Assembly: GCA_951799445.1 (NCBI GenBank)
Contig: OX637288.1
Coordinates: 32,529,288 to 32,593,287, forward strand
Source: Pseudisothecium myosuroides
Taxonomy: Eukaryota; Streptophyta; Bryopsida; Hypnales; Lembophyllaceae
DNA length: 64,000 nt
Direction of reading: 5' to 3'
The translations under genes and the position numbers were made by a program. Shown here in pieces: positions 1-57,487 of this stretch (its first letter is position 1; the number at the start of each line of letters is the position of its first letter). The notes beneath the pieces were generated by a model, which did no database searches, was not told where the DNA came from, and worked only from the letters and a program-made list of their open reading frames with translations.

Positions 1-548
1 CCTCCTCATACTTCTGCATCCTCTCATGCATCATTTTCATGTAATCCTTCATAGTAAGATCTTCTGTTTCATCCAACTTCCTCTTTCCTCGATCACGCTC
101 TGAAGAAGGGGATGGAGAAGTGAACGATGAACCACGACATTCACTTGCTGGTGGATCCATAGGGGCGACTGGTCCAGCATGTGGAGTGCTAAACTCTTGG
201 GACGCGGGAGGATTGATCATGAGGACTTCGTCACCTTCTCCTTGGTCAATTATGTCATGCTCCAAATCTTGAGCAACCAATTGAATACGATCTCTCTTGC
301 CCCTACCGGATGACGAGGTGTCATTATCGACCGTCTTTGGATACTTTTCTTCATCAACATAGTACCCTGACTGAAGGAAATCCGCCTTGTCCAAGTCCAC
401 AGACAATTGCGAGAGGTCACTAAAGGATTTTGTCTCGTCAGAATCCCCAATGATATAATTTATCAACGAATTCATCTGGAAGAAGATGGAAAAATAGTTA
501 GAATAACATATTTTAGATAATAAATTCCAAGACAAACAAACATGTCAA

Positions 549-569
549 TTCACCTTGAATGGAGGTGAA
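549..569. repeat. Single palindrome copy in intron 2 of the ParB-like gene
   Basis: TTCACCTT, centre GAATG, GAGGTGAA. It lies inside the 119-bp intron (594-476) and belongs to the family that forms the arrays at 3781-4196 and 15611-16593. Confidence 0.85.
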
Positions 570-2004
570 TACTTAGAAAGAACAACATACTCACCCATGC
601 CGCACAGATGATTTTTCCACCCCCGTATATGGTAAAGACCGCGTCTCCAGGATTGCAAAATAAAGCCAAAATGCTTATATAGAATTCCATCCGTAGTTCA
701 TTCTCATAGATTCGATACTGCATTTCATTGTAAGCTCCCGAGGTAATGAATTCATGCGTTTCCGGAGCCTTGAATTTTGTTGGCAAGGAGTTGCATTTTG
801 CCTTGTGGTTCTTCTTAATGAGGAACATGATGTGGACGTTCGCTTCGACTTTCTTCTTGTTCAACTCAAGATCTTCAAGTCGCTCGTACTTTGCCGGCAT
901 GTACTCTGCGTGGTGAAGGACATAATTATCTGTAAATACAGAATTGTAAAAATGGTGTATGAGACTGGAGTCGGTCTTCTTATCTCCAGATAACCACACC
1001 CACACAGGGATATCAAGAATTGCAGGATCAGTTAGCCGCATCAGCAACATCAAAAAAGAATAAAAATACGGAGTTGCCATCCCTCCAGCCTCCTTCTTGC
1101 TGCTTGGAAAAATTCTGAAGTCCATGAATCCCATCTTTATACGGTCGACATCCAAATGATCCCAATCACCTCTGGCCCACTTTGCTAAGTCGCCTGTGTT
1201 TTCGTTGAATGGACGGTAGAATGCTTGACCGATGGGAACTGTAAACCTTCCTTTATTTCTCAAGAAGACCTTCAGAAATTCCTCGGCATAGGGTGACAAT
1301 TCTCGAATGCTCTTGTTGATGTTACACAAAAGCTTCGATGCAGTGAAGAATATCTCAGAAGGACCTGTGATGAGGACATGCATGGCAGCGTCCGTGATCT
1401 TATAATCCTTTTTAAATTTCTTCCACATGTCCTTCTTAGTCTCTCCTGTCGTGGTTAACAAATCAAGTTCGAGCTTCATATCATTGAGCTGCACCTTTAC
1501 AATTTGTTTTCTTTTGCGCCTCTCACACCACTGTCGATAAGTACAGCAGTTTGGTACAACCTTCTTCAGCTTCTTAAATGTCACCTTTGGATAATCCTCC
1601 ATTCTCTTGTTCTTCTTCTGTGGTGGGTCAGGCTTCATCAATAGATGCTCTGCAAGTCGCTTGAGGCTTGCGTTGGAAAGGTTGCCAAGCCATTTGAAGA
1701 ACTCTTTACTGATGATGCCATCCTTCTCCGGAACCCAACCCTTGTTGTTCTTGAACAATGTTCTTGACTCCGGATCGATCAACTCTCCCATTGAGGCAGC
1801 GGAAATGAGTTCAGAGTATAACTCATATACATCTGTTGGAGCAGTAATAATTTTGAGCTCGTTTATAATGTCAACCTTCACGGGCTTGCCAGACTTGGTT
1901 CTTTGCTGCTTCTTAATGTCAATCATACCAAACCGTAGCTGGCAAGCAGCGTCAAATTTCTACACTCAAAGATAATGTAAACAGGTTAGTCACTGAATAG
2001 AAAA

Positions 2005-2025
2005 TTCACCTTGGATGGAGGTGAA
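2005..2025. repeat. Single palindrome copy in intron 1 of the ParB-like gene
   Basis: TTCACCTT, centre GGATG, GAGGTGAA. It lies inside the 182-bp intron (2141-1960). The only two introns seen in this gene each carry exactly one copy. Confidence 0.85.
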
Positions 2026-2495
2026 TTATGAACTAGAAAATTGCATTCTGCAAGCTTCAAGAATAGACTGATGACCTCCTAACTTATATGTATTAGAAAG
2101 AATTTAGTTGAATAATATAAAACTACTTCCTTATGACATACCTTCCAATTTTCGGCATTGTTGCCCTTGGATTGTGACTTTGTTCTTGAAACTGATCGTC
2201 CCACTTCGGATGCTTGTTTTGGAGGCGTTGGTTCTCCCATCCTTACCCACACTCCACGAGCACCAATTATATTAGTTGCCCAGGTAGGTGTATATCTGTC
2301 GAAGTGATTCACTCGATTATAATAAGATGAAATTTGTCGTAGAATGGAGTGGTCCTTGCTCCAGACAATGAAGCATGGCCATTTTTCAAACTTCTCCTTG
2401 ATCTTGGATGCAGATGCCTCGGTCCTCATCTTCTTTGATGCCTCGACACTGTGCTGGCCATTGATCATGTAGAACTTGCAATCTTGTATGTCTTT

Positions 2496-2498
2496 CTA
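2496..2498 (-). other. In-frame TAG inside the ParB-like domain
   Basis: The minus-strand frame reads ...ATG CCA AAG GAT TAG AAA GAC ATA..., with nine sense codons before the next ATG, all in the frame of both flanking ORFs. A single C-to-T change from CAG, or one change from AAG, would produce it. No obvious readthrough context is visible. Confidence 0.85.
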
Positions 2499-3780
2499 AT
2501 CCTTTGGCATTTCCTCCAATCCGATAGGCATAGCACAAAGGGCCTGCTTTCTATCTTTGTCAGGCATCTCCAACAAATAATGCATGGTGTGGTCGATGCC
2601 GGACGGCTCTAGACTGCGGCAGTTCATGTCAGGTAGAGGTACCATCAACTGATCAATCGAAATCTCTTCAACTTTATCACTACCAAAACAATATGCTTCT
2701 TGGCATTCAGACCAATAACTATCATAGATCTTCAAGGACTCCTCGTAATTCGCTTTCCCAGAGTCTTTATCCTTGGGTATAAACTTGAAATCCTTTGGTA
2801 TGTTTGTAAGGACTGAGAGTGAGCTAGACTCGGGATCTTCATCATTGGCTTCAGCTGTTGTAGTGTCCCACGTCCTCATTGGTGTGCTAGCACGCACCGT
2901 TCTTGAAGTACTAGGTCGACGTTTTTTATTTTCACTTCTGCCTGTCTCAGAAGTGAGATTTAGGCGGGATTGCTGGCTCCCGACCACGCCACTTGACTCT
3001 CGAGACAAATGTTGAGGGGTCATGTTCTTGTGACTAGTCCTTAATGTTGTTGTCTCAATTTGAAAAGAGACTAACAGCTGCTTCAGTCGAGTTGCCAGAA
3101 TTGCTGAAGGTAGCGGTCCTCCATCCTTACTCATCCACCTTCCTTTCTGGATTTGTGTTTCCAGCTCCTTATAGAGGCCTTCGTACTGGGTGTTCATAAG
3201 AGACGTACAACATTCATGAATACTGAATGGCGTCTCTTGAGGATTGACGGCATAAGTGTACTTGTATTCCTCTGGCATGTCTGGGTCGTTCTTGATCAGG
3301 CACGTGATCAAAAGCATTCCTGGAGGACCCTTGGCAATATCAACAACTTCTTCATAGTGAGAAATTGGAAGTGTGGCGTCAGGCCCATTTTTGAATTTCT
3401 TCATGAACCCAACGTTTTGCGTCATTGGATAAAGAATGATGCTCCAGAACTCAACGCTCTCTGGCTCTTTTAGTTTCCAATAATCCCCATTGTCGGCCTC
3501 TTCACCAAATTCTTCGACCAAGTCTTCGGGTACTTCATATTGATTGAAGTACATGTCTAGTTTCTTTTTGTGTTCGTCCATACCTTTACTGAAGCATACA
3601 AGAAGAATTTAATTAGAAAAGATATTCAACTGGAGGCCTAAACGTTTTGCTTATACAACACGAAATTGGTAGTAACCAAATTACCATTGGCTCCTAATGG
3701 AACACTCTATATATCAATTGAATTGAAGAACCTCATAAATAGGAATAGATTAAATTCACCACGAATGGAGCTACAAGCTA

Positions 3781-4196
3781 TTCACCTCGAGTCAAGGTGA
3801 TTTTATTTATGGATACTACTTGTACAAGAAAGGCAAGCGGCCGTTGATTCAACTCCACTCGAGGTGATTTGAGTCCGGAAACTACTTCTACAAGAAGACA
3901 AAGCGTCTTCTGATTCACCTCGAATCAAGGTGAATTTAGTTTTGGATACTACTTCTATAAGAAGACAAAGCGGCCTTCAATTCACCTCCACTCGAGGTGA
4001 TTTAAGTATAGTATACTACTTCTACAAGAAGACAATGCGGCCACTGATTGATTCACCTCGACTCAAGGTGAATTTTGTACTTCTACAAGAAGACAAAGGG
4101 GCCATTCATTCACCTCCACTCAAGGTGAATTGAGTTTGGAATACTAATTCTAGAAGAATACAAAGTGGCCTTTGATTCACCTCGAATCAAGGTGAT
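3781..4196. repeat. Left palindrome array, 7 copies, about 67-bp unit
   Basis: Palindromes of the form TTCACCTC-nAnTn-GAGGTGA(A/T) start near 3781, 3848, 3914, 3981, 4052, 4109 and 4176, spaced 57-71 bp apart. A degenerate copy lies near 3754. The unit also carries a second short inverted repeat, CTTCT-ACA-AGAAG, followed by 'ACAAAGCGGCC'. The centres tend to alternate between CACTC and GAATC types. The array ends about 200 bp upstream of the start codon of the ParB-like gene, so it occupies that gene's promoter region. Confidence 0.9.
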
Positions 4197-4820
4197 TTGA
4201 GTTTCGAATACTTGTTCTAGATATAGACCAGAAGAAGGAGAAAAATCATTTTATGTAAGGGAAAGACTAACATCCATTAAAATAGCTCACCTCTAACTTC
4301 ACAAATGAATGTATATAGCCAAAATGCCACGGAAGTCTTCTAGAAATTTGGATGTCGTACACGCTGCAAACAATCAAACCACATGTTGAAGTGAGATTGA
4401 CATTCCTCAAAAAATAGTGACACCTCCACAATGTTATGATAGTTATAGCCGCAAGAACTTAAAGAATTGGAAACTCAAAAACTAATAATTAGAACTACTC
4501 GTTGGAACCTAATTTTGAACTCTTGTTTTAAAATTGCTCATTTGAACTCTGGCTAAGGAGCTCACAAAGAAATAACGATGACTCAACAGCCTGTAAAGGT
4601 CACAATTAATCAACAATGAATCAAAGATGACTACAAAGCTCACAAAGAATCAACCATGACTGCAAAGGCAACATCGTATACTCACGGTCCTAAACCCTTA
4701 AATGTTCACAACGATTCTCTCAAAATTGATAAAGCGCCTCGGGAATCATTCAAAATGCATACTGAGTTCAAAATTCAGAAACATGTCAAAGAACGAGCTT
4801 CCTCCAGCTCGAAATTCATG
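4197..4820. other. Gene-poor spacer
   Basis: No coding region is supported. The stretch from 4560 has several short repeats around 'CTCACAAAGAATCAAC..TGACT', suggesting a degraded tandem repeat. No further palindrome copies were seen. Confidence 0.5.
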
Positions 4821-4825
4821 AACAT

Positions 4826-5320
4826 CCTGATCAGTCAGTCGATCACTGCAATCAAACATAAACTTCCTGATCAATCGATGCAGCCAAACATAAACTTCCT
4901 GATCAGTCGATCACTAAATCAATGTAGCCAACCCTAAACTTCCTGATTAGTCAATCACTGGATCGATGCAGCCAATCCTAAACATCCTGATCAGTCGATC
5001 ACTGGATCGATGCAGCCAATCGGGTAAACATCCTTGATCATTTGGAAACAGTCGATCACTACAAGCCCTCGATTATTGGAACGAAAACCCTCGACAGTAA
5101 GACCGCCAAACCATACAGTCAAGCTGGAAACCAAATCCAAGGCCGAATCAAATCAACCCTAAACATCCTGATCACTAAATCAATGTAGCCAACCCGGATC
5201 ACTGGATCGATGCAGCCAACCGGGTAAACATCCTCGATCATTTGGAAACAGTCGATCACTACAAGCCTAGAAATCACTGATCAGCCTAAAAATCACCGAT
5301 CATTTGGAAACAGTCGATCA
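4826..5320. repeat. GATC-dense imperfect tandem repeat
   Basis: Imperfect repeats of 'CCTGATCAGTCGATCACT' and 'GGATCGATGCAGCCAA' recur across about 490 bp. By hand count there are about 19 GATC sites, where random sequence would give about two. A roughly 115-bp segment near 5042-5157 recurs almost exactly at 5299-5417 ('CATTTGGAAACAGTCGATCA' through 'CCAAGGCCGAATCAAA'). Confidence 0.8.
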
Positions 5321-5419
5321 CTGCAAGCCCTCGATTATTGGAACAAAAACCCTCGACAGTAAGACCGCCAAACCATACAGTCAAGCTGGAAACCAAATCC
5401 AAGGCCGAATCAAAAACGG

Positions 5420-6395
5420 TGAAGCCAAATCCGAAACCCCAGCAACTCAATCGTCACTATTCAAACAATGCAAGTGCTGAAAGATGTAGTGCTAGTTACG
5501 TTGGTACTAGATTTGAATTCTGTGTTCAGATTCTCGTGGGTGAGATTATTGAGGACTGATTGAACCGATACGAGTACTGAGGTTTAAAAAGCCGGCCGGT
5601 GAGATTGCGGTGACACAGTCACAGCATGCCTAGAAACAGGTGCAAATCCAAACTCAGATTGACAACCAGTATCACAAAACTTTCCTGCAGTAGCGACTTG
5701 CTCTTGAAAGCTAGCACTTCCTACAGCAAATACTGAGTACGTAGGTCAAAACAACGACCAAAACAAAACTCACAACCTAATACCGCATCGCCCGAAACTC
5801 ACCCCAACCAGAGATCTTGACTTCCACGCCCACCGCAATGAAGTCCACAAAGCAACCTACCGAGACTCAAACAAAGCCGACAGAGCCTACATGAGCAACC
5901 GAGAGAAATCAAAGCAATAAGAATGACAATTTCGGGAAAGCACCTGGCTGCTTGCGCTTCACGACGTGTTTGCAGGGACGTCCGTGAAAAGCACCGCTGC
6001 AGGCGCCCAAGAAGAAATCGGTAGTAGGAGGCGCAACTTCACAAGCCCAAATCGTCCGGTCCTCCTTGGTCTTCTTCGCGATGAGGAACAAGGCAAAAAC
6101 TGGCAGCACTCACGCAAGTTTCTCCTGCTGCAAATCTAGCTAGAAGGATAATATAAACCCCAACACCCGCAATGAAAAACGAAGCTACACACCTACGCCC
6201 AGCCAACACAAGAGAACTCCAACTAAAATCTCGGTCCGCGCCCGCACGGAGGGACAAGACAAGCACGCTCGCAAGCACGTCGCTATTCACCACAAGTTTC
6301 TGACAGCGGTACTCTCAGAACCACGACGACGGCAGAGCCCGGGAAAGCAAACCCCAGAAACCCTAGGAGGCGCTGAAGATAACGAGGAACAACCT
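5420..6395. other. GC-richer spacer without a recognised gene
   Basis: This stretch is less AT-rich than its surroundings. Short open frames on the minus strand (6039-6293, 5909-6109) lack recognisable motifs. It could be the remnant of a gene 5' end or of a repeat. No function is assigned. Confidence 0.35.
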
Positions 6396-6398
6396 CCG

Positions 6399-6475
6399 TT
6401 CATACCCGGACCCCAGTACATATACCCGGACCCCTGTACATATACCCGGACCCCAGCACATATACCCGGACTATT
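6399..6475. repeat. 20-bp tandem repeat, about 4 copies
   Basis: Units of 'CATATACCCGGACCCCAGTA' type follow each other with one or two changes each. The unit is GC-rich and the copies are close to each other, so the expansion looks recent. Confidence 0.85.
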
Positions 6476-6534
6476 CCTGACCCAAACCGTGACCTCAGCA
6501 ATCACAGTGATTACGAAATATTTATTTTCTTAAT

Positions 6535-6775
6535 TTTCCTTGAAAGATAATCAGAAATGACATGTAATCCAAGTTGTTTCATATTAATTGGAGGTTTGCG
6601 GAATTAGCTATAAAATTTTGAAGTTGAAATACCATATGGCTCTAAAAGTGACCACCTCCTAGAATGTACACCTTTTGTACATTTTGGTATATTAAAGAAA
6701 GCAAAATGTACCTCTGTGTCATGTTTCGTTTAAAATGCCCAATCAAAGTGCAAGCCTCCTACTTTAGTAGACAAC
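6535..6775 (+). repeat. Dispersed repeat, related to 58780-59010
   Basis: Shared landmarks in the same order in both copies: GAAAGA..., TTTCATAT, TTTTGAAGTTG, GACCACCTCCT, GTACATT, AGCAAAATGTACCTCTG and CAAGCCTCCTAC. The copies are diverged, indicating an old repeat family without coding capacity here. Confidence 0.7.
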
Positions 6776-7439
6776 AAACATACACTTTAAACGTTCAACG
6801 CCTGACTGGTGACCCTTAGAAATCATGCTATTTGGTACTTTGTGACATCATGCACTTTTAAAAAATCCATACCTTAACCACTAAACGTCTGGATTCATCT
6901 CCAAAATTGATGATTTGAGAAAAACCATTATAAACTACAATTTGGAAGAATATTTTGGAATTGGTATACAAATGAAAGCTATAGATTTTGATTTTTAAAT
7001 TCTATCCGTACGGTTAGATCTACGAATGCTATCACCAATCTTTTTCTATAAATTTTAAAAAGAAAATTTTAGAACTCCTTCTAAATTCAATTACAAGTAG
7101 AATATTATCATTTTTTGAGTAGAACTTGTTGGAATGGATTTGAAATAAGGTTATCTTCATATGGTGATTTTTGAAATTTTTGTAACCTTTACATCTTTGA
7201 TCTCATTTTTGCACATCTAGTTTTGAACTAAAGTCAATGCAAATTGACCACTTGACATACTTCTACATCTGTAATTTTAGAAATGTATATATTCTAGTAA
7301 TACCAAATCCAACTGATGGATAGGACAACAACTTGATGAAGTATCACCAAAAATTAGGATGACTTTCATCCAAGCAGGAATGAGACAAAAACAAGGTTTT
7401 GAATCTGTTCATCGTCCAGAAAATGGACGTCGGAGCGCT

Positions 7440-8392
7440 CCAGGGTTAAGACAGGCTGTTTGTTTTGTTTTGTTTTGTTGGTTGGTTTGTCACGTTCAGA
7501 TTTCCTGGACCGTACGCCCCCTAGGCGCGTGCTTGGTATCGTCAAAAAGACCTCGGCAAGGAGGGGTGCACGGGCTTGGTTTCGTCGCGTTTGGAATTAG
7601 GGCGCGGAAGTTATTGAATTAAAAAGTATTTATGGATTAAAAAAACTACTAAACTATGCTAAATTATATATCTTTTGAACCGTGTGACAATTTGTCATGT
7701 TCTTGGTAGCATTGGAAAGCCCTAAACTAGGAGGGGTGTATGGGCTTTATTTTTGTGGCGTTTGGACCAGCGATGTAAAAGTTAGAGATTCTTGAGTTAT
7801 TTTTTGTTTTCAAAATTATTTTTATTTTTATTTTATTCTTTTTTTAAAACAACTTTTATTTTTTGAGGGGCTGTGGCAACGGCACAGGGCTACACTTGGT
7901 TTTGTGGCGTTTGGATCCATGACGGAGAAATTATTGAATTTGAAAGTTCTTATTGAATAAAAAAATTAGAAAATGACTTTTTGGTTGTAGCAACAGCACA
8001 AGGCACACTTTGCTTTGTGGAGTTTGGACCTATGGTAGAAAAATTATGGATTTTTGAGTTATTTTTGGTTTTAAAATGGCTTTTACTTTTGTTTTGATTG
8101 TAGCAGCAGCACAAGTCCATACCTTAAGTTTGGCTGTTAGTTTTGTTTGTTTTGTTTTGATTTGTTTTGTTTTATTTGTTTGTTACATTGAGATCTTCCG
8201 GACCGTGTGTTCCCCGAGGGCGTGCTTGGTATTGTCAAAAAGCCCTTGGCTAGGAGGGGTGCACGGGCTTTGTTTCGTGGCAGGGGAACCTGCAATGAGA
8301 AAGTTATTGAATTTTGAAGTTTTTATTGAATAAAAAAATAGAAAAATATTTTTATTTTTATTTTTTAGATTGTGGCAACGGTACATGGCACA

Positions 8393-8395
<3 letters not shown>
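7440..8395 (+). repeat. Cluster of diverged copies of a dispersed repeat
   Basis: At least three partial copies (about 7480-7640, 7690-7930, 8160-8400) share 'AGGAGGGGTGCACGGGCTT', a GTGGCGTTTGGA-type block and AAGTTATTGAATT. Another copy lies at 45430-45665. Open frames across these copies are short and unrelated, so no gene is called. Confidence 0.75.
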
Positions 8396-8459
<64 letters not shown>

Positions 8460-8478
8460 TTATATATATATACTTATA
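8394..8478. repeat. (TA)n microsatellite
   Basis: About 80 bp of near-pure TA dinucleotides with two ACT interruptions towards the right end, placed at the right edge of the repeat copy ending near 8395. Confidence 0.97.
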
Positions 8479-8479
8479 T

Positions 8480-11260
8480 GTATATAATCAATTCAATGTG
8501 AATGATTTTGATCATTGTACTCAAGATGTTATGCAAAGGTGCTTGTTTAAAATCTTCATTTTCTAGTGTTCAGGGCTTGTAGAAATAAGCCTCAGATGCA
8601 CTACAATTGTAAGAAAAAATGACAATAAAATTCATTTAAAAAAATTGTAAAGTACATTTTGAAAAGACATGAATTGGTTTGAATTATGTAAAATATGCCC
8701 TTTATCTTCATATTTTGTTGGTGACAAATTTGACATGTGACAAGAGGATAAAAAGACTTGAAATATATTTTAAAATTCAAAAAATTCTAGAAAATGTAGA
8801 ACTTTTTTTTTCATACAAAGTAATTTATTTTGCATAGAAAGATTTGATTTAGAAGATTTTAGAACAAAACCCAGACATGCTACAGTATACTATGTTTTCA
8901 ACATTTTTGAAGTTTAAATTAAAAAAGAAATGTTGAACGTGAATGTTATAAAACTATTTGAATAATTCTACTGAATTTTTTTTTAATTCTATTTAAATAA
9001 AATTGGTTAGTGTAGGGTTTGATTTAAACAATTACCGGTACCTAGATGTAATGTATACATCACATTTTCCAAATTATGTTTCATTGTCAGCTTCATTTTT
9101 TTCTTTGAAGTTGCATTTTGTAATAATATTCTCAATTTTGTAATTTTGGACATTTCTTTGGTCCCATATTTATATATATATTAATATTTTTAACAAATAG
9201 AAAAATAAAAGCTTGTGATTTTGGATGTTTGCAAAGAATGGTATACTTCAAGTTGAAGTTCAAAAGATATCGTCAAAATTTTACACAAGGTAACTTTTAA
9301 CTGCGTTGATCATTGCCCTCTATAATTAACCTTTATAGAAGCTTTTATGTAGATGATGAGATGGCCTTGAAGATAATGAATGCTATTTTGAGATTTTGAG
9401 GTAGTACCCAACAATGAGGGGTTTAATTGAATGATTTTATTCTAAAAACAATAAATATCATATTTAGAGGTCATAATGGCCATATTGTCGCAAAATAAAG
9501 TAAACATATTCATAAAAAAATTTATAGTTTATAAATGGACATTTCATATTTCTTGTTAACACGAGAATGCGGTTGTATGTAATTTATGCTTTAACTTCTA
9601 GTACCCTTTATGTTATAGTTGCAACTAATATTGACCCTATCATGTAATGCAAAATAATCATGAACTTGAAACCAAACGTTGAATTGACAATCAACACTGT
9701 GCATTGTAACATTGTAGACATTTATTCAATTAATTGTGTAATGATTGCCAAAATGCAACTAAATAAGGTGTTCCATTGTATTCCAATGAAATGATTCAGA
9801 TTTTGTGACACTTTTCCTTTATAGGCTTTACAAATTTGATTAATGTTTTACATTCTTCAATCTTGCAGTACACAAGTAAAAGGATGTGTGGTAGAAATTT
9901 AAAAAACTTCTCCCACATGTTTAGCAAGATCTTTGCATTCAAAGTAAAGAATGCCAATTTTGAGGGAACCTTCCGTGATTTGATTTTTTTACTTTGAATC
10001 TATTTAACTAAAAAGATTTTGCACTATAGGTAGTGAATAAAAAAATTGTGTTCAAGACGTCAGTTGAGGGTCTACATTTTTGTTTTAAAAGCACATTTCA
10101 TTTTAATTCGTCAAGAAATTGAAATGTTGAAGCAAATACTCCATATGAAATACCACAGTGAAGGAAAACATGAAATCTTCAGTACTTATAAGATAGAATT
10201 TCAATACACTAATTGCAACAAAGACATTGTTTTAGCTAGCAACCTCATCCATATGCAACTTCTTTTCTTACAAAAATGTAAAAATGGAGTTCAATAATGA
10301 ATCATGAGTTATTTTTTGAAGAAGATGATGAGATTGCTTGATAAATAAAACACTCCATAATTTTTTCATCACTAGTCCAAAATTAATGGGATGAATCAAG
10401 TTGCCATTTACATACAATAGTACGGAGTATTCTCAATGAGAAAGATAAACTTCTCAATTTATAATTCTAATTCTTGTGATTTTTTTGGTTTAGGGTCAAA
10501 TTGATCGATTTTCTTAGTAAGGCATACTTTCAGGTAGAAAGCACTCAATCATTGACTATAATAAAAAGCCTATAGGGTCCCAACAAATTTATAGGAGATG
10601 ATTTTGGCATAACCACTGCTTTTTTTAAAGAATCTTTGTTCTAATTGTTGAATATGCCTTAAAACATGAAATCTTTTTGTAGTACTTTGTTCTTAACTTA
10701 CGGTTATTTGACATAATACAAAAGAAAATAACTATGTTAAGTTTCTAAGTTTCAATAAAAAAAATTAGTTGTCAACACTCATTCAGTCATCCATATTAAT
10801 GGTTCTTTAATTCATCCAATTCATGACTATTTTAGATGAATAAGCAACAATTTCTGTTAGAATATTCCAATAAGAACTTGCATGAGCACCTCAATAACGT
10901 CCAATACTAGCTCCTATTACTGTGGTTTGAACCTATATATCTACCTCAGTCATATACATTTAGAACTGGAGAAAATCAAATGCAATCTTTTCATGGCCTC
11001 TTATACATATTTATAGACATTTGTTGGCACTAATCAGTGCTAGGTAGGTCCTCGTTTTCAAAAAATTTAAGAAAGTCTACTTTATATTTTATTGTTATGA
11101 ATGTGTATTACTTTCCAAGAACTGAAAGCATTGAATAAAATTGTCTATTTCTTTGAAGACTTCTATTCAAACAATTAGTATGTATAAAATTTTAGAAAGT
11201 AATTTTAGTTTTCCGAGGTTGGAACTACTGCAATGCTTGCCACATTATTCAAATATTAAA
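8480..11260. other. AT-rich spacer, no gene seen
   Basis: Strongly AT-rich with short random frames only. The longest (10046-10297 plus) has no recognisable motif. Nothing functional was identified. Confidence 0.5.
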
Positions 11261-11284
11261 AATCCATAAGAAATTGGAACTGAA

Positions 11285-11615
11285 ACAAATATCAAAAACT
11301 ACCTAAAGCGTTATAAAATTGGAAGGTAAGGAAAATGTAACTACCATCAGTTCAAAAAAATGGGAAGGGAAAAAAATTGTAAACTACCTTAATCACCAAA
11401 AAAATGGGAAGGGACAAAAATCAAAAACTACCTTCAGCCACCCAAAATGGGAAGGACAAAAACCATAAACTACCTTTAGCCCCCAAAAAATGGGATGGAA
11501 AAGAAAATGTAAACTACCTTGAGTCCAAAAAAATAAGAAGAAAAAGTAATTGTAGACTACGTTAAGACCCCAAAAAATGGAAAGGAAAAATAACCATAAA
11601 CTACTTCAAACTGGT
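11285..11615. repeat. Imperfect tandem repeat, unit about 50-58 bp, 6-7 copies
   Basis: Each unit contains an 'AAACTACCTT' block followed by an A-rich segment and 'AAAATGGGAAGG'. Copies differ in length by a few bases. It sits in AT-rich spacer with no coding content. Confidence 0.8.
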
Positions 11616-11619
11616 TGCA

Positions 11620-13455
11620 ACAAAATTCCTGTTGTTTTCCATTCACTACTTAGCTCGCACTTCCTAAAGAAGTAACCAGCCAGTTGAAACAACATCAAAT
11701 GAGGAACCTTGAAATTCGCACTGAAAGTTCACAAATTTAAATTGATAAGGTAAGCATGTTTAAAAAAGTAAAAGCCACAGACACAAATCATGTACTATAA
11801 TATGTGAATAATACAGTATGCAATACAATATGCACTACAGTATGCAAATACTACAATATGCACAGGAATCCCCAAACCAGTTCAGTTGCACCCAAAATCC
11901 TGACCACCCTAAAGTTGGCACGTTGCAGGCAACGGATAGTAGTGGGCAAAATCGTCCATCCAAATTTGACTAGTACCAATATGTCTTCATCCCCTAAATG
12001 GATCAGCAGTTCCATAAATTGAACATAGTAACAAAAAATTTCTAGCATCTATAGCTTGTATCCTACATTGGGTGCAATTTTTTGAATACGTAGTATTACT
12101 TACCTATATATCTTATTTATAATTGAGTGCATATGATTTAGTATACCATGTATTATCTCTCGGTTATTTCTAAATTTTAGATGTTGTGAATTAATACCTC
12201 CCTATATCATGCTGCACATAGTTTGCTAAGTTTTTCTGTATAACCCCCCCATGTGGGATACAAAAGTATCTTTGATTCTATTTTAATTTCTTTGTATATT
12301 TATGCACAAATAGTGAATCTTCAAATACTAAGAGAAGCAATCTACAACAAGGCAATTGTGTGACCCCCCCTAGAAGGATTAAAGAATTCTTGGAGATTGC
12401 ATTTAATATGAAAGCAGTTAAAGATAATTTTTACAGCACATTATACTAGTTGAACTCTAGTAATCTAATATATTCTTTCAACATAAGAAATTATAAAAAA
12501 TATGAATGAATTTTTTATTGTTATAAATAATTCAATTACTTAGTTTGAATTTATAGACTTCTCAACCTTGAAAAAAAATTTAATACTACAAAATTGTAGT
12601 CTTTATTTCTTTTCTCTTATGACCAATTAAATTAATGTTATACTTTTATGCTAAAAATATCCTATTAAAAAATTAGAATCATGATTAATAATGTACATAT
12701 GGGATAGATTGAACACAAAATAATCCCTAGAAAATTACATTGTTTTGTAAATTCCAATGCATAAAAAAAATCCACCTTGAGTCATATTTTTACTTTTAGA
12801 TTTTATCTAATCAAACTTTTTGGAAATAATTAAATATTAACCAAAGATGTGCTACCTTTCATCTTTACTTTAGTCTCATTACCTTGGAAAGGCATAGATA
12901 TAAATAAAGAATTAGTTACTTTGATGTATTGAGAAGTAAAAATTAGTACCCCTAACTTTGTGCTCTCAATTCTAAAGAAATTGAACGACTCTCCTTCAAA
13001 ATACAAACATGTCATTTCTATATGGTTTGAGACTTATATAGTACAAAGTCATATTCTAACATCAGAAAGGGTAAAATAAAGAGCATTCATTGTAAAATTT
13101 GATGAATTTTTTGTGTGTGTGCTAAATTTTCATTTACAATATTTAATGTTTTTTTATGCATGATTTTTGGCTAGTTATATAATCCTGAACCGCTGAAAAA
13201 AACTTTAATTTACTTAATTCAAAATGATCAAATCACTATTATTTTTTAAAACTAATATTGAATTTCATCTAAGTATGTATCATTTACTTCTAATATTTAT
13301 TTCAGTCAATAAATATCACTTAAGTGTGATCCAAGTATCACATAAGTATTGAAAAAGTAGTTGCTTCTTTTGTAGAATAATTCCTATAAACTCACTCTAG
13401 GTGCCCTTCTTTAGTTTTAATAGATACTACTCTGCCTTGTGTTGTTGCCACATTC
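11620..13455. other. AT-rich spacer, no gene seen
   Basis: Short overlapping frames near 11804-12048 and 12830-13015 have no recognisable domains. Two C7-containing motifs (12246 'CCCCCCCATG', 12364 'CCCCCCC') stand out against the AT-rich background but remain unexplained. Confidence 0.4.
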
Positions 13456-13456
13456 A

Positions 13457-13503
13457 AACCCTAAACCCTAAATCCTAAACCCTAAACCCTAAACCCTAAA
13501 CCC
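13457..13503. repeat. Interstitial telomere-type repeat (CCCTAAA)n
   Basis: About six tandem CCCTAAA units with one variant (TCCTAAA). This is the standard plant telomere repeat. The run is short and flanked on both sides by ordinary sequence, so it is interstitial. Confidence 0.95.
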
Positions 13504-14226
13504 AGTAGCCTCTCTTATGGTATGGATAGAGTGTTATTGCTCCAAAGTTTGCTAGCAATTCGAATTGCCGTCCACTTTAGGAAGAAGAATATACGGCAAA
13601 AAAATCCATAATTATGAAGATAATTTCATCAATTTCCATTGATAATTTGCTCCAAATGTAATACCTAATGTAAGGTTTTTGGAACCTTGATTTGAACACT
13701 AGATCCAATTTCATTAGATGTGTTTTAAATAGCCAAATGGAATGAGGTTGAATGGGATGAGCTATGTAAAGGGTAGGCCTTAGCCATGTCAGGTGCGTAA
13801 TGTGCAAATTATCCTACTTAAAATATGTGCACGTGGATCCTGACTCCTGAACCTTGTATTCCTAAAATTCCCTGATGAGGACTGAGCCTCTCATAAATTC
13901 AAGTAGGTGAACGTGAACTTTTCCCATTTTTGTCGCCTACCTGCAAGTTTAGAGACGGTGGAATAAAGTGACGGCAACATAAATGCCTTTGAAGTAGTAA
14001 ATGGAATTTGATTTTGTAGGTGGAGAAGGATCTGTCATTCTTCCGTTGTAAGCGCACTAGATTTGAGGAGAACCGTTTCAACTTTGGAAACGCACTTCCC
14101 TCCCAAAATTTCCCGCCTCAGTGATTATTGTTGCGGCCATTCCAAATTTTTGGACGAAGTTTGTTTGTCTGTTCTTGTGAGGTCTCTTTGCTCTTGCGCC
14201 TGAGATGTGCAAATATTGTTCTTATG

Positions 14227-14349
14227 AGTGTTTGCGATTAAACTTTTGAGTACCGGTGGGCAAGTGGTCGAGTCCGGTGCTATTTCAAGTGTTTGTGATT
14301 AAACTTTTGAGTACTGGTGGGCAAGTGGTCAAGTCCGGTGCTTGTTCAA
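14227..14349. repeat. Tandem duplication of a 61-bp unit
   Basis: Two adjacent copies run from GTGTTTG(C/T)GATTAAACTT to CAAGTCCGGTGCT-type ends, with only a handful of substitutions. The surrounding 13,510-15,600 holds no recognised gene, although 14,100-14,620 is less AT-rich and could be a degraded exon or promoter. Confidence 0.85.
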
Positions 14350-15610
14350 GTTGTGCTGCGGCGCTTGCTACGAGCTTCATATCGTGTTGAGGTTGCGGTC
14401 GAAGGAGTCAGGCAATTTCTGTAGAGGTATGACGTATCCCTTTGATTTGAATTTGATACTCTTTGTATTGTGCAATATGCTCTGTCTTTTCTCTTGCTTG
14501 TGTGGACTCCATGGAAACATCGTCGCATCATTCAACCTATCAATGGTTGTGATTTTGGTTCGTAATCGAGATGTAACGCTGCTAGTTATCTTCAATTCAA
14601 TGCAAGTGTAGAAAAGCTATGTCCAATTCTTGGATTTCTAGTTCTGATTTTTTTTTTCTTCGGTGATTCTCAACTGATGCGGCTTTAGGATTTAGGCGTT
14701 CGCATCGTTATTGTAGTATAGTAGTGCCATCTGAGATAGAAGAGGTAATAGTAAAGGTACAGATTCTGCTCACATCCCTTTGAGAATGTTTTGTGGAGAC
14801 AACATTTCTGAATTGAAGTCCTTCAACTTATAATTTAGTATGTAGAAGGTGAACTTCACTGTGCTGATCTCTGTTGTAGTGATGACAAAGTTTAGTGAAT
14901 TAGAAAACCCTAAATCTTAAAAAGTAGGATCGAAAATAGAATTGTATTGCATGCACAGAGTTGTTCAATTGAAGACCATTTGTCTTTCGGATTATTGAAT
15001 TGCAGTCCAGAATGTGTGAGGCAATTGACCGCAGATGTAGCTTGAATAGCGGAAATTGTGCAATCGTAATGGACAATTTTGTGTTCGATTGTATTTCCTG
15101 CAACAGTTTGGTCTCAATTGTTGTCACTTGTACTTGTTCAAATGATTTTGTATACAGGGAGATTTTAAGAGATTGACCGATTTTTTTGAACTTGTGTGTA
15201 CATTGCTCTATTATTAATTCTGAAGATTACGCTGAGGAGTTCAAGGAGGCATGCGTCTACATTGGAATTGATGGTTTCAAATGTTTTATTGACTGATAAT
15301 TGCAAGGAAAATTGCACCCCATTATGATTCCTGTTATTAGTGTAGTTGTTTGTATTGGATCTTGTTAGTAAGTGACAGCAGGTTGTAGCACCTCCCACAG
15401 TGAAGGGTGTACATTGCAAGTGGTGTAGTTGTAATTCTTCATTTGAATGGAATTTGCTACGAACAATATGAATTCATAGTCGACTTGAATGTACTACTTT
15501 ATATTCTGATTGGAAAACAAGATGAGAAGAGGTTTTCAAAGTCCATAAATGAGATAGAGTGGAATTACTTAATCACAAATTGGTTATCTAAGAATAGGTC
15601 AATTCATCAA

Positions 15611-16593
15611 TTCACCTCGACTGGAGGTGAATATTGATTATGTGAATATAAGAAGAGGTCAATTCATCAATTCACCTCTAATCGAGGTGAATATCAGTTA
15701 TAGATATCTAAGAACAGGTCAATTCATCAATTCACCTTCAGTCGAGGTGAATATCGATTATAGATTTATAATCAATAGATCAATTCATCAATTCACCTCC
15801 AGTCGAGGTGAATATTGATTATGTGTATATAAGAAGAGGTCAATTCATCAATTCACCTCTACTCGAGGTGAATGTCAATTATGGGTATCTAAAAACAGGT
15901 CAATTCATCAGTTCACCTCCACTCGAGGTGAATATCGATTTTAGATTTATAATCGATAGATCATTTCATCAATTCACCTCCAGTCGAGGTGAATATTGAT
16001 TATGTGTATATAAGAAGAGGTCAATTCATCAATTCACCTCTACTCGAGGTGAATGTCAATTATGGGTATCTAAAAACAGGTCAATTCATCAGTTCACCTC
16101 CACTTGAGGTGAATATCGGTTTTAGATTTACAATCGATAGATCAATTCATCAATTCACCTCCACTCGAGGTGAATATCGATTTTAGATTTATAATCGATA
16201 GATCAATTCATCAATTCACCTCCAGTTGAGGTGAATATTGATTATGTGTATCTAAAAACAGGTCAATTCATCAGTTCACCTCCAGTCGAGGTGAATATCA
16301 ATTATTGGAACTTGAAAACAAGTCAATTCATCAATTCACCTTCAGTCAAGGTGAATATCGATTATGGGTATTTGAAAATAGGTCAATTCATCAATTCACC
16401 TCCACTCGAGGTGAATATTGATTATGGGTATAAAAGATTGTCAATTCATCATTTCACCTCCACTCGAGTTGAATATGAATTAGGGGTCTATAAGAGTAGG
16501 TCAATTCATCATTTCACCTCCACTCGAGGTGAATATGAATTAGGGGTCTATAAGAGTAGGTCAATTCATCAATTCACCTCCACTCGAGGTAAA
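15611..16593. repeat. Right palindrome array, 17 copies at 60-bp period
   Basis: Near-palindromes TTCACCTC-nAnTn-GAGGTGAA start at 15611, 15671, 15731, 15792, 15852, 15912, 15973, 16033, 16093, 16154, 16215, 16275, 16335, 16395, 16453, 16513 and 16573. The spacing is 58-61 bp. Most copies are preceded by 'CAATTCATCA'. The intervening bases are also repeated, with a higher-order period of about 181 bp (three 60-bp units) most obvious between 15627 and 16190. Weaker copies follow near 16661, 16759 and 16805. The array lies 475 bp upstream of the DUF7869 reading frame. Open frames through it arise because the unit length is divisible by three. Confidence 0.95.
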
Positions 16594-17067
16594 TATCGAT
16601 TATAGATTTTAATCAGTTTACTTATACATGAAAAAAATTCATCTTGTATAAGGTTTGTAATTCACCTCCAATGAAAGTAAATGTTAATTGAATACCACAC
16701 CATCATGAAGGCTATTTTTCCTTCTTCTGAGTTGAAACTTATTTTTGGAGGTTCTTGATTCACCTTCATTCGAGGTGAATACGACTTGCATTTTATTTTG
16801 AACCAACTCCACTTGAAGTGAATACAACTTGATGAAATTATTTCATTTAGCTAGACTGCAGGTAATATAGTACTTTCAGGAAGTAGCTATATCACCTTTG
16901 CTCACCATAATTGTAAATGAGTTATAGTGACTAAGTACTAGCCTTTCTTATGACTTATGAAGTATATGTTTCGCTTGTTTAAAATAGAAAACTCCGTCCC
17001 AGTACAACGCCCATATTTTCTTTGTCAAGTTGGCGATTGAGATCATCATTGATTTGGTGAACAGATC
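16594..17067 (+). promoter_or_regulatory. Probable 5' flank of the DUF7869 gene with residual palindromes
   Basis: This stretch separates the 17-copy array from the ATG. It contains one good outlying palindrome (16759-16779, centre ATTCG-like) and two decayed ones. No convincing TATA box was chosen. The promoter role is inferred from position only. Confidence 0.4.
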
Positions 17068-19908
17068 ATGAACCCAGCAAGAGTGAACGAAGCGGAGGAT
17101 AACTATTCAGATGACAATGTCCAAGTTCATCCAGAGGAGGCATTGGATATTCCCGAATGCGAAGGTATTCCACGAAGTCTTTGGAGCACAAAGTTAGTAA
17201 CACTTCTCAATGAGGGTGGTCTTGCAGTAGCGGAAGGGATCTGTCACAGTGTAAGCTCCGAGCTTGTAGTTGGCGCTACAGGTGCACTTGGCGACTCTTA
17301 TATTGCTGTCCAAATCTCAAAGACGTTAGATACCAATCATGTTCCAGATGAATGGAGGTTTTCAGTCCGTGCGTGGCCGATTGAGAACGTGTTCTATAAT
17401 GGTGCAAGTCTTCGGAATCACGAGCTCCGTTACAATTACAATTGTCGTCAGGCAGCTCTTTTGGCTCCTCTGTCAACACAGAGCACACGGTATACGAGTA
17501 CAGTGAGGAACCCGCCAAGAGAAACTTGTGTGAAGGCCAAAGCTCTTCTCACTCAAGATTCCATAAATAGTGTTTCAAGCAACACTTGCTGTGTCAACAA
17601 CTGCGTTCAACCGTTTTCTAGAGACAAAATTAGAGCTTTTTGAGAGCGTATGTATCGAGACACATCGTATAAGTTTCGATACCACATGAAGCTTGATGTT
17701 CATAGACAAGTTCATCGTGATACGCAAGGAAAGAGGATGGTCACCGTGGAGGGTATAGATGTTTGTGTGTCTGCTTGGAGGCATATTGCTGGAGTATCGG
17801 AAGCAACTTTTCAGCGTTTCCAAGGACATGCAGACTAGGGTTTCAATGCCCAGCCCCATGGAAATACTGGTTTGCGGAAGCCTTGGAAGCACACTGAGCA
17901 AGCCATTGCCACTTTGAAGTGCATTCTAGAGAAGAACGCTGATCACATGCCTCACCGTACTCGGACGCTGAAGTCGGGCGAGAAGGTAGTCTCCATGATT
18001 CTTCCAGCTACGTGGAAATGGAAGGAAGCTATTCCTGAAATTAACTCTGTGAACACGGTCTTTGGATTGAAAGAAGTATCTACATCCAATTTGAGCAAGA
18101 TCAGGAAGGTTAACTTTTCAGAGTTTGACGCTAAGAAACCTGGAGACAATTTTGCACGTTGTTCCACATGTGATAGATACCATTCACTTAGGAGAAGTGC
18201 ACCTGTTGGGTCTCAATCAGCTTTAACATGGGCCAAGAAGTTAGATTTGCATTTGGTTGTTGCTAGGGTGCACAGGGAATTGTATTATGCAAATCGTTAC
18301 AGGTCAAGTTCCTACCCACATGAGTGCTTGACGATCATGCATGATAAAATGGATCATGCCAAGACCGCTTCCCCCGTTTTCTCCCACAAACATAAGGCTA
18401 TTGATGGTCTAATCAAGTTGCCTGTATCTGTAACCGGTATGATAGCCCACAGTCATGGTGATGTCCGTTATGCCCATTATGGCCTGGACATCTTTTCTCA
18501 TGATTCCAACTACACAATCGGCTCCTTTGCTAAGTTCTTGAGAGATTTGGAGTTGCCTCCAAAGTATTCCTCTAGGGAGTTGTTTGTTGGCTCCAGATCA
18601 GCTCCTCTTTTTGATGCAGTTCTACAAGGAGATCACATTTGCAAAACATTTCTTCAACCAGCTCCAGAGATCCCAATTTTAGGGCTGTCACTCCCTCCAA
18701 TTTTGAATGTTCAGATGGACAATGCTACTGGTGATAATAAGAATAGATTTGTGTTTTGCTTCTGGTCCCTTCTTGTTGCCAAAATTTTTTTCCGGGAAGT
18801 GTATGTGAATTTCATGCTCGTGGGACATACTCACGATGATATCGATGCACTGTTTGGGAGGTGGAGCATGTTGCTGAAGAAAGAAAACTTTCCCACCATT
18901 CCTTCACTTATGAAGTCCTTCATGGACGTAGAATTGGTTCCTACAATTCCCCATCTTGTAGAAGAAGTGCCTGATTTTAAGGCTTTCATTCAGGGATTCA
19001 TCATGGAGGGAGACGAGTCTCTTGTTGGGCACACCAAGGCTCAACAATTCAAATTCTACCTGGAGTCAAATGACTGCCCAGTCATGAAGTACAAGCTTCT
19101 ATGCACGGATGTAGACTGGCTTCCTAAAGAAGGTGGAGGCATTAAATTATGGCAAGAAGACTCTGAAGGTCGGAGTTTGTGGCCGCGTGGAGAGCCGGTC
19201 CCCGTTTTTTCACGCCCGATGAGAGGTGTTGATGACATATTCAAGGGTTTAACGGGATTCATCAATTATTGGGAGAAATTGTCCAATGAAGACCAAACTG
19301 GGGAGTACAGAAGACGGTATGAGCATTTAATATACTACTGGCAAGCAGTGAAAGCAGTGTTGCATGAACCTATTGAACCTCCATCTTCTTTGAAAGATGG
19401 CTTTTGGCCATCCACTCGTGTTGCACCGACGATCGAAGATCAGTTTGAAGATAATGGTGAGATTCGGGAAGAGTTTGCAGAGGATGACATCTATGTTGGG
19501 CAATTACGCGATCGCCCACAACAATCCTTTCGGGTAATGCGTGATGTCTATGCAGGATACTTTCTTGCTATTCGTCCCGCGGATGGCGATGCAAGGCCTG
19601 TTTGGATTGCAAGAGCGTTGTCTGATCCAAATTGCAACCCCGAAGAACCCAATTCTGTGCTCATTCAGTATTTCAAGCCTACATCAAGAAACCGAAACAT
19701 TCAAGAATTCTACACTGGTTGGGATTCTACAGGAGGATTACGCTGGAAGGTTGACGAAGCTCTCCGTCCTATTTGGGAGCATACAGATTCCTTGATGACT
19801 ACATGGAAGTTACAGATCAAGAAGGACACGACTCAGTGTAAGCTGAAGATCCCGGCCGCTCAAATTGAAGTGATTCACGACAGTTTAGCTGCCTTGAATT
19901 CCACTTGA
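17068..19908 (+). pseudogene. DUF7869-family transposase-like gene with two in-frame stops
   Basis: One frame runs from ATG 17068 to TGA 19906-19908 (946 codons before the final stop) with no intron needed. It is broken only by TGA (17641-17643) and TAG (17836-17838). The part before and between the stops has the family's usual N-terminal features: a CC-V-N-N-C cysteine cluster at about residue 172, an 'FSRDKIRAF' helix, and 'VCVSAWRHIAGVSEATF'. Further on come 'CSTCDRYH', then 'VQMDNATGDNKNR' and 'MLVGHTHDDID', which match the DUF7869 pattern (DN..ENKN..., GHTH.DID). The aspartates of these two motifs could be metal ligands of an RNase-H-type fold; that is inference. The family occurs in repeated copies in several basal plants and oomycetes, which fits a mobile-element origin. 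The start was chosen as the first ATG after the array. Confidence 0.7.
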
Positions 19909-20441
19909 GCATAAATATTACTCTACTCAGTTCATTCTATAGTAATACTTTGCTTTTATATTGTGTAGGTAATGCTTCTGGTTTTCTTATAGAATTTTGT
20001 ATTGTGCGTCATACAAGAGACGTAATATATTTGCGTGTTAAGTGTTTTTATACTATAGATTTGCTTTCCATAAGCAATAGAAATTCTATGTTGCGTGGTA
20101 TACAATAAATAGTATAAGTTTGTATGTTTTGATTTAACCTTAAGGATTTCCATTGGAATCACGGTTTCAAGACAGTGTATTAATTGCTTTTGTGAAGCAA
20201 TTGCATTTATATATGAATATATTTTATTATTGCATTCTACCTTTACATGTTTCTATGATTGACTTTAGTTTCCTTCTAAATTGACTATAGAAAATGCATT
20301 TCAATATCTGAAAGAATTGAAAAAAATGGTAGTAGGTATTACCACTTTATTTTTTGTTAACGTGTTAAGCACTTGTCACATTTTGGGATAGGGGCTTCTA
20401 TGTTGTTACAACTTTTCTGCCTACAAAATTTACTTAGCAGC
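19909..20441. other. 3' flank of the DUF7869 gene, no further gene
   Basis: AT-rich with only short frames. No palindrome copies were seen on this side, so the right boundary of any element is not marked by another array within the window. Confidence 0.5.
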
Positions 20442-20555
20442 ACCAAGTCATGTATATTTCATAGGTGCTCATCCAAACTCAACGGGAATCGAACTCGGAC
20501 CGCTTGAATGAGATAAGCATTCCCGTACAACCAACTGTAGACCTCATGACTTGGT
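20442..20555 (-). repeat. tRNA-derived (SINE-like) sequence inside a short inverted repeat
   Basis: On the minus strand 'GGTCCGAGTTCGATTCCCG' (20501-20483) looks like a Pol III B box, preceded by 'TCTACAGTTGGTTG' as a poor A box. The T stem does not pair properly, so it is not a working tRNA. The unit is bounded by ACCAAGTCATG (20442-20452) and its inverse CATGACTTGGT (20545-20555). Confidence 0.55.
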
Positions 20556-20739
20556 ATTCAATAGATGGCATGATCTTCACTTATATAAATTGAAAAACGA
20601 TTATTATACTGAATTGTATATATTTAAAGACTTCTTGAGTACAGTAACTCTCATTTTAATGAAAGTTTTACTTTACAACTAATGAGCTTAGTGTTTATCA
20701 TCCTAAATTTGCTAAACTCAAAATTCAATTTTTGGACGT

Positions 20740-51108: not shown

Positions 51109-51260
51109 TTTGCCATTACCATTTCACATTACAGGCTTTGTTGGAAGTGTCTAAATAGTTGCAATTACTTTTACATTAATTATAAAATTTCTAACCAATG
51201 GTTATCATTACTTTTACATTGTGATTGGCAGATTGGGGAATAAGCCACCTTTGTTAGAAG

Positions 51261-51270
51261 TATAAATAAA
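51261..51270 (+). promoter_or_regulatory. Probable TATA box of copy B gene
   Basis: TATAAATAAA lies about 138 bp before the ATG at 51408. The equivalent sequence TATAAATAGA is present in copy A at the same relative place, and the surrounding 200 bp are conserved between the two copies. Confidence 0.6.
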
Positions 51271-51407
51271 GGAAGGCCTCCCATTCTTCCCACTCTTATC
51301 TTCTTTGTTGTTGCCTTCCCTTTGACTTTCCAAGCTTTATTCTCCTCAAATTTTTTGGCTTCAACTCCTTGTGGTCATTTCTTTTGCTCTTTTTCCTAAT
51401 TCAAGCC

Positions 51408-51974: not shown

Positions 51975-52083
51975 ACACACTCAGGCTAATTCTTGCATTC
52001 TAAGCTTGGAGTGTAGATCAAGTCACAGAATTATGTACAGTACATTATCTATATAATTAGGAGCTTATAAGCTTGACAGTACA

Positions 52084-53523: not shown

Positions 53524-53559
53524 ATAGGCTACACTTCATTAGTTGGATCCAAATTTGAA

Positions 53560-54631: not shown

Positions 54632-54990
54632 TGAAACAAATCTCTTTTGGGAATAAAATCCAAATAAAGAAAAAGGAGCAAAATTTGCCAAAATATACTA
54701 CACAATGACTGGCATGGACGTGCCATTTCCTTATATCAAAAATATCACAAGGAGGGAAAATCCAATACCATTCCTTGACAATGATTTCAAGCAAATTTTT
54801 TTAATTGGATGAAAAATATTTTTTTCCTATCCTCTAGGCCTCTTTGAATCATCCAAAGGGCAAAAAGAACCTCACCCCTCACGCATTTTTGAGGACCAAA
54901 TTCCATCCTATTGCAAAATCTTGATGAACCAATCCACGGACATTCTTGTGGACATTCTTGTGGACATTCTCTAATCATGCATTAATATGG

Positions 54991-57480: not shown

Positions 57481-57487
57481 GTGACCT

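Follow-up and report, generated by a model that had tools for sequence, protein, structure and literature searches.

The transposon and its two genes

The window, i.e., the whole 64,000-bp stretch of DNA that was analyzed, contains part of a 24,451-bp DNA transposon (coordinates -3651 to 20799), whose leftmost 3.65 kb extend past the window's left edge. The element carries gene A, on the minus strand with its ATG at 3581, and the divergent gene B, with its ATG at 17068. Features are listed below in window coordinates, except where a position in the sequence to the left (L006) is given.

L006:7960-8448, strand of gene A: FCP1/NIF-like domain downstream of gene A exon 3
1..20799, no strand: window part of the transposon (start at L006:6349), delimited by the shared right end, left terminus, AGTA duplication and empty paralogous site
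1..475, minus: gene A exon 3, continuing beyond the window to about -319
549..569, no strand: palindrome in gene A intron 2, exact, 7 bases of flank included, in 36 of the 42 matches in the genome
595..1959, minus: gene A exon 2 (455 codons)
2005..2025, no strand: palindrome in gene A intron 1
2142..3581, minus: gene A exon 1 (480 codons), with the ParB-like motif NGQHSVEA and one in-frame TAG
3781..4196, no strand: array A, 7 palindromes at 57-71 bp spacing, 5' of gene A
4251..15580, no strand: element middle, 11.3 kb, GC 34%, longest stop-to-stop frame 129 codons, without palindromes (<=3 mismatches)
15611..16593, no strand: array B, 17 palindromes at 58-61 bp spacing, 5' of gene B
16661..16779, no strand: two outlying palindromes between array B and gene B (16661-16681, with 3 mismatches, and 16759-16779)
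17068..19908, plus: gene B, DUF7869 protein, candidate DDE/D transposase, with two in-frame stops
20775..20799, minus: right terminal inverted repeat, reading inward AACACTATATTCAATATTTTGAGAG
20800..20803, no strand: right AGTA target duplication (the left AGTA adjoins the left terminus in L006)
51185..52274, minus: unoccupied paralogue of the insertion site, aligned across the joint at 86% identity

The termini are inverted repeats, AACAC(C/T)ATATTC (left, AACACCATATTC; right, read inward, AACACTATATTC), and the target duplication of the window copy is AGTA. The right end is common to 26 of 27 gene-B loci, and 31 terminus pairs were found. Aligning copies to locate ends and duplications, as the preliminary description had suggested, gave sharp termini and 4-bp target duplications that are perfect in 10 of 12 copies, carry one mismatch in another and are absent from the last. 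The same window also holds an empty paralogous insertion site, where a single alignment, 86% identical, spans the joint. Together with the genome-wide pairing of the two genes (divergent A within 60 kb of 52 of 65 B hits, with about 1.8 expected), these results show an inverted-repeat DNA transposon of 24.45 kb that makes 4-bp target duplications and carries two divergent genes, and so bear out the earlier proposal that both genes and the palindromes belong to a single element of 20 kb or more. Scans of the window for tRNAs and Rfam families gave no match.

Gene A homologues in Ceratodon are frequently fused to an FCP1/NIF-like domain, and the A and B homologues there carry neighboring locus tags. 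Scanning gene A and the Ceratodon homologues against family models gave significant matches only to the NIF domain at the C terminus and to its related NCBIfam entry. NIF-like domains usually have the motif DxD; here it reads DLN, which makes phosphatase activity doubtful. ParB and DNA methylase models gave no significant match to gene A or its homologues (the nearest were DUF6551, E=0.06, and phrog_31036, E=0.19), and NCBIfam gave nothing for the ParB-like part. The best hit in a PDB profile search was an arginine methyltransferase at E=0.49, and the fold model was unusable. Weak matches to MHC trimerisation, FANCF, ZW10 and T4 UvsX were taken as chance. What is left of the label "ParB/methyltransferase-like" that the gene had been given is the motif NGQHSVEA, no family model being significant.

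A Pfam scan of gene B returned DUF7869 only, apart from a chance match. Residues D427, D552 and D594 are invariant among 27 gene B sequences, and the protein is a candidate DDE/D transposase. The confidence of its structure model is modest, and low near two of these three aspartates; fold searches gave no significant match. DUF7869 has at least 153 matches in this genome (150 of 1224 candidates scored). We found no paper naming it in the open-licence literature, a weak absence.

Palindromes in the element and across the genome

The window contains 28 matches to the 21-bp palindrome TTCACCTCNANTNGAGGTGAA at <=3 mismatches, all within the one element, compared to a mean of 0.04 and a maximum of 1 in 100 dinucleotide shuffles. 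They occur only in the 5' flanks of genes A and B and in the introns of gene A, and none of the 28 falls in an exon as modeled. The preliminary description had reported at least 24 arrayed copies upstream of the two genes, two more inside gene A and none elsewhere in the window. We count 7 in array A and 17 in array B, locate both copies within gene A (each intronic in the gene model), and find none at 16780-64000 or in 20 kb of sequence left of the window (L005, L006). The two arrays have the palindrome in common and unrelated linkers.

Across the whole genome, the palindrome occurs at 1572 places with <=2 mismatches, vs. 12 for the reversed pattern. Family-1 sites are present in all 25 B loci whose sequence reaches the flank, and a B gene accompanies family-1 palindromes at all 60 places among the matches listed.

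In the copies examined, sister families have the same layout, with sites before A, before B and where A introns are expected, and the sister palindrome differs from that of family 1 and is identical at both genes within a family, so that four families of one genome have four palindrome versions. Of the flanks retrieved from sister families, 14 of the 15 at B and all 4 at A have the own-family palindrome; flank L040 has none, and among the 2b sites listed, 5 of 50 have no A or B hit nearby. Sister-family sites are mostly dispersed, yet still palindromic and family-specific. Between families, A proteins are 40-45% identical and B proteins 71%. This pattern suggests that each family may have a DNA address private to it, recognized by a protein that the family itself encodes. 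The idea that both genes are controlled from shared sites gains from the recurrence of one palindrome at A and B in each sister family; this support is indirect.

Selection on the sites was assessed in 22 recent copies (L028 and L030-L033 excluded). The minor-letter rate was 0.0154 in palindrome arms and 0.0139 in linkers, and 11 of 80 arm columns were variable vs. 75 of 491 linker columns (Fisher p=0.87), i.e., these copies give no sign of extra constraint on the arms.

Candidate readers of the palindromes

We consider it probable that one of the element's own proteins, most likely that of gene A, reads the palindromes to control or de-silence A and B. This reading is favored because sister families change the palindrome yet keep the same one at both genes, because arrays with unrelated linkers share it, and because A diverges more between families than B. 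Several results count against it: the arms evolve no slower than the linkers in the recent copies, no DNA-binding family matches gene A significantly, the faster divergence of A could reflect weak constraint, and there are exceptions in flank L040 and among the 2b sites. The palindromes would be putative binding sites for the element's own protein. The site-bound A product would sustain expression of A and B of its own family, or lift their silencing, and its FCP1/NIF-like domain could touch RNA polymerase II. The DUF7869 protein would work on the termini as transposase. Private sites would keep the regulator of one family from serving another, array length would shift through tandem duplication, and site and reader would co-evolve.

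The reader might instead be the DUF7869 transposase, which would bind the palindromes and thereby repress gene A and its own gene or set the time of their expression. Sites do stand at both genes of the element encoding it, and B is present at every listed family-1 place. However, B has remained 71% identical between families, against 40-45% for A, though the site changed (weak evidence), and the distances from the arrays to the element ends are 7.4 and 4.0 kb; we regard this reading as unlikely. The same distances count against subterminal sites bound by the transposase, an idea raised in the preliminary description; excision would require such sites, as it does in large DNA transposons of other kinds. 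The element does combine repeated motifs with a transposase-like gene, but the nearest sites are 4.0 kb from an end (4.2 kb for the intron-2 site, on the left), none is near a terminus, and the palindromes flank genes. The fit is poor, and we give this account almost no credence.

Host transcription factors or silencing machinery might bind the sites as plain promoter or silencer elements, as positions 5' of both genes and in introns would allow. A single such factor would favor one site, whereas the genome has four palindromes, and each family has its own at both A and B; an explanation by host factors is quite improbable. A neutral minisatellite, i.e., a chance palindrome multiplied by slippage and functionless, would agree with the tendency of slippage to expand tandem arrays and with the lack of extra constraint on the arms in recent copies. 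It does not readily account for a motif shared by single intronic sites and two arrays with unrelated linkers, nor for sister-family sites that are family-specific palindromes despite being mostly dispersed, and it seems very improbable.

Regulation by an element-encoded reader, as favored here, would resemble the VANC/VANDAL mechanism, with another transposon, protein and type of motif. We know of no sequence-specific anti-silencing system of transposons other than VANC. If the palindromes are an analogue of it with a different protein and in a different lineage of plants, self-licensing by co-evolving sites would be general among transposons. More tentatively, a lineage of giant plant transposons may have independently evolved a family-private code in which a protein with a ParB-like motif, linked to a polymerase-CTD-phosphatase-like domain, reads 21-bp palindromes at the two promoters and in introns. 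The code would diversify from one family to the next, each family licensing only itself, and sequence-specific anti-silencing of transposons would then have arisen a second time, from an unrelated source. Four site versions with their genes in one genome form a natural experiment on the diversification of DNA-binding specificity, and DUF7869, a domain of unknown function, is now placed in transposons in the families examined.

Comparison with known systems

We found no paper describing this element in the titles and abstract beginnings of the open-licence literature, a weak absence. EnSpm/CACTA transposons are large elements with two genes, termini CACTA, a 3-bp duplication and the transposase domain PF02992. 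CACTA occurs inside the right terminus of the moss element; however, the terminus starts AACAC, the duplication is 4 bp rather than 3 bp, and Pfam gave no EnSpm family match for gene B at E<=1. ParB-parS is a bacterial partition system; the moss element shares with it the ParB-like NGQH motif and the clustered palindromes. Here, gene A has no significant ParB profile match, and the sites belong to a plant transposon, where they lie at promoters and in introns.

The transposon may belong to the superfamily Lanisha of Maumus, McDaniel and Carey, who reportedly work on Ceratodon, and since it may, we do not affirm the earlier suggestion that the element is undescribed. Lanisha (Maumus, McDaniel and Carey, Repbase Reports 2020) is a superfamily of cut-and-paste DNA transposons, and the clade holding it makes 2-5 bp duplications (PMC12730594, available portion). 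By description alone, the likeness lies in the cut-and-paste DNA transposon and in a 4-bp duplication within that range; in DUF7869 the invariant C(2)C and H(4)H precede D552 and are not clearly between the second D and the last E. The accessible portion of the same source describes fungal transposons with TET/JBP dioxygenases, a second gene thought to aid escape from silencing (PMC12730594). That is an enzyme and not a private site code, and no TET/JBP gene was seen in the moss element.

The VANDAL transposons of Arabidopsis carry VANC anti-silencing proteins (PMC5735166, PMC10398659), and VANC21 motifs are tandem repeats in introns and upstream regions that co-evolve with VANC (PMC5735166). 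As described in the available portions of these papers, the VANDAL motif is a directional 9-base YAGTATTAY, in contrast to 21-bp palindromes, and VANDAL has a Mutator-like transposase where the moss element has DUF7869, 4-bp duplications and a second protein that looks unrelated; the Pfam scan of gene B gave DUF7869 and no Mutator-like (MULE) transposase. Anti-silencing is a feature of VANC, to which the moss element is likened from its sequence. As far as these sources extend, both systems have noncoding motif arrays upstream of genes and in introns, with a motif that varies by family and a proposed co-evolution of protein and motif.

Palindromes and genes within one transposon

At ≤3 mismatches, the 21-bp palindrome occurs at 28 places in the window, against 0.04 expected, far beyond chance. 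They accompany two divergent genes, gene A with a ParB-like motif and gene B, a DUF7869 gene and candidate transposase:

5' of gene A, minus strand (array A, 3781-4196): 7 palindromes
5' of gene B, plus strand (17 in array B, 15611-16593, and two outliers up to 16779): 19 palindromes
Introns of gene A, by gene model: 2 palindromes

The preliminary description, which placed palindromes upstream of both genes and two within gene A, is borne out, with the latter pair confined to introns and none of the 28 in a modelled exon. At the same threshold the palindrome is absent from 4197-15610 and right of 16779, and none was found in the 20 kb left of the window. The arrays have different linkers and share the palindrome. 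Conservation across units in arrays B and A is 0.98 and 0.95 for the arms, and 0.86 and 0.70 for the 18+18 bases flanking the palindromes; of the 42 genome matches to the intron-2 palindrome plus seven bases beside it, 36 are exact. Among 22 recent copies the arms change no more slowly than the linkers, a pattern that neutral decay of inserted copies would produce and that gives no support for palindrome function. Family-1 (the window's family) array lengths vary from copy to copy, and a diverged copy (93%, C1:32195140-32195686) has steps of 87-89 bp versus 60 in 15611-16593, as expected from tandem duplication. Mid-element, at 13456-13503, the plant-type telomere unit AAACCCT forms a short tandem stretch of 6.9 copies.

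The palindromes and both genes are parts of one transposon. Its right terminus, ...GAATATAGTGTT, is common to 26 of 27 close gene-B loci (window counted), with different flanks beyond it; in the other, L023, it falls beyond the locus limits. The left inverted terminus reads:

3.65 kb left of the window: AACACCATATTC

The window copy measures 24,451 bp. For 12 further copies the sequence at the expected left end was extracted and inspected, and 11 have the left terminus; L065 lacks it at the expected place and appears longer (40.7 kb). Twelve copies have both ends; in 10 of them the 4-bp target duplication is perfect (AGTA in the window), in L061 it has one mismatch, and L062 has no duplication. 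An unoccupied paralogue of the insertion site (52274-51185, minus strand) aligns to the flanks in a single piece at 86% identity, its joint reading TGTA where the insertion has AGTA. The large element of at least 20 kb proposed in the preliminary description thus has termini, a duplication and an empty paralogous site, and the alignment of copies it suggested yielded the common ends and duplications.

A genome search for the termini at ≤2 mismatches gave 63+63 matches (reversed control 0). Pairing the 81 with ≤1 mismatch among the 100 matches listed gave at least 31 inward pairs spanning 23.9-48.0 kb (median 25.6 kb), none of them short and MITE-like, and left 19 termini unpaired. The window copy is worn, with in-frame stops in gene A exon 1 (one) and gene B (two). 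Right of the element lie:

23962-24432: replication factor A3-like, probable host gene (E=5e-16)
32126-32758: Ras-family GTPase, probable host gene (E=5e-56)
36820-37305: probable host gene, weak EF-hand/EH matches

The insertion's right flank (20800-23546) is repeated, inverted and scrambled, at about 48017-57580 (79-89% identity); a 201-codon frame within this repeat (51369-51974) has no Pfam match.

Palindromes specific to each family

In the copies examined, which cover both genes for families 1, 2a and 2b and gene B for 2c, the palindrome differs between families and is the same at both genes of one family. Family-1 palindromes occur in all 25 close B loci reaching the flank (L007-L031), their number running from a single one in L028 to several. 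Neither L032 nor L033 extends to the gene B 5' flank, and L034-L036, from a sister family, have none. The 68-72% families have 38 B genes; 3-kb flanks were read for 15, and 14 of these carry other palindromes sharing the frame TTYANNTC-N5-GANNTRAA; the L040 flank has no such palindrome in its 3 kb.

2a: TTCAASTCGANTCGASTTGAA (3 loci)
2b: TTTAACTCGNNNCGAGTTAAA (8 loci)
2c: TTCAGCTCGANTCGAGCTGAA (3 loci)

Four further A flanks each carry their own family's palindrome at ≤2 mismatches, with 17 matches in L052 (family 1), 9 in L053 and 5 in L055 (both 2b), and 6 in L054 (2a), where plain shuffles gave 0.00. Sites also lie at the expected intron 1 and 2 positions, one each in L053 and L055 and three in L054, with sister-family intron limits set by comparison only. 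The 2a and 2b palindromes differ little and match each other in several loci; cross-matches are otherwise five single ones.

Across the genome (388 Mb, 222 contigs) there are 1572 family-1 places at ≤2 mismatches versus 12 for the reversed pattern. The genome-wide motif check proposed in the preliminary description, that arrays always accompany both genes, was borne out for the family-1 matches listed (100 rows), whose 60 perfect places form five clusters, every one within a terminus pair, and in part for 2b. The latter has 131 exact places; among the 50 listed, 42 are no more than 8 kb from an A or B match (a zone covering 0.6% of the genome), three are 11-12 kb away and five have none near. 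This tally drew on 65 rows for B, 41 of the 92 for A and 24 from the DUF7869 search. For 2c there are 74 exact places (reversed control 0), and the 50 listed include eight site pairs 10.3-11.7 kb apart; in two (C8:17771482, C2:29301052) the right-hand site is just 5' of a known gene B.

Pairing and homologues of genes A and B

Divergent genes A and B travel together. Genome searches returned 66 rows for gene B, which matches DUF7869 (E=4e-40), and 92 for gene A exon 2; removal of second pieces of the same copy (one B, three A) left 65 and 89. Gene A lies within 60 kb of 55 of the 65 B genes (about 1.8 expected), and 10 are without it. Among the 55 pairs, 52 are divergent and 52, not the same set, join the same family class. 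One divergent pair, C2:29301052/29281826, belongs to a family-2 element lying within a family-1 element, and the B gene of the outer element is at C2:29319166. The 36 A hits without a listed B include some with a B in the DUF7869 search (for example C4:6839100, C4:12504340, C7:215601), so the B list is incomplete. In the nesting on C2 (29274128-29322093) the inner element is of family 2c, and nesting is also indicated at L035 (C11:12808474), whose right flank resembles exon 3 of another gene A.

The element's host is probably a moss, as species-named homologues come from Ceratodon and Physcomitrium for gene B and from Ceratodon for gene A; in Ceratodon the two have adjoining locus tags, KC19_3G000200 (A, 39% identity) and KC19_3G000300 (B, 74%). 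Among the Ceratodon gene A homologues (P0123-P0136), most have locus tags of the U or V sex chromosome, a hint that these chromosomes may bear many copies. A C-terminal NIF (FCP1-like) domain is annotated (precomputed) in 9 of 16 gene A homologues, and the window's element encodes one left of the window, beyond a stop (E=4.6e-10).

Proposed mechanism and known systems

Because the site is family-specific yet common to both promoters and the introns within an element, the simplest reading is that its reader protein travels with the element. An element-encoded protein would read the family's palindromes at both promoters and the introns, and may thereby keep genes A and B expressed or undo silencing. 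The gene A product is the better candidate, since it is more divergent between families (exon 2 42-45% and exon 1 40-41% identity, versus 71% for gene B) and has an NGQH motif, as does ParB. A NIF-like domain would fit contact with RNA polymerase II, although its motif reads DLN. From the 4-bp duplications and the invariant residues D427, D552 and D594, we infer that the DUF7869 protein acts as transposase; the structure model is of low confidence near some of these residues.

As far as excerpts of the published accounts go (PMC5735166, PMC10398659), the transposon would work in like manner to the Arabidopsis VANDAL elements with their VANC anti-silencing proteins. Membership in VANDAL/VANC was rejected, as no Mutator-like match was obtained for gene B. 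The superfamily may be Lanisha, a group of DNA transposons cited and described in PMC12730594. The strategy is already known, and the set of parts appears to be independent.
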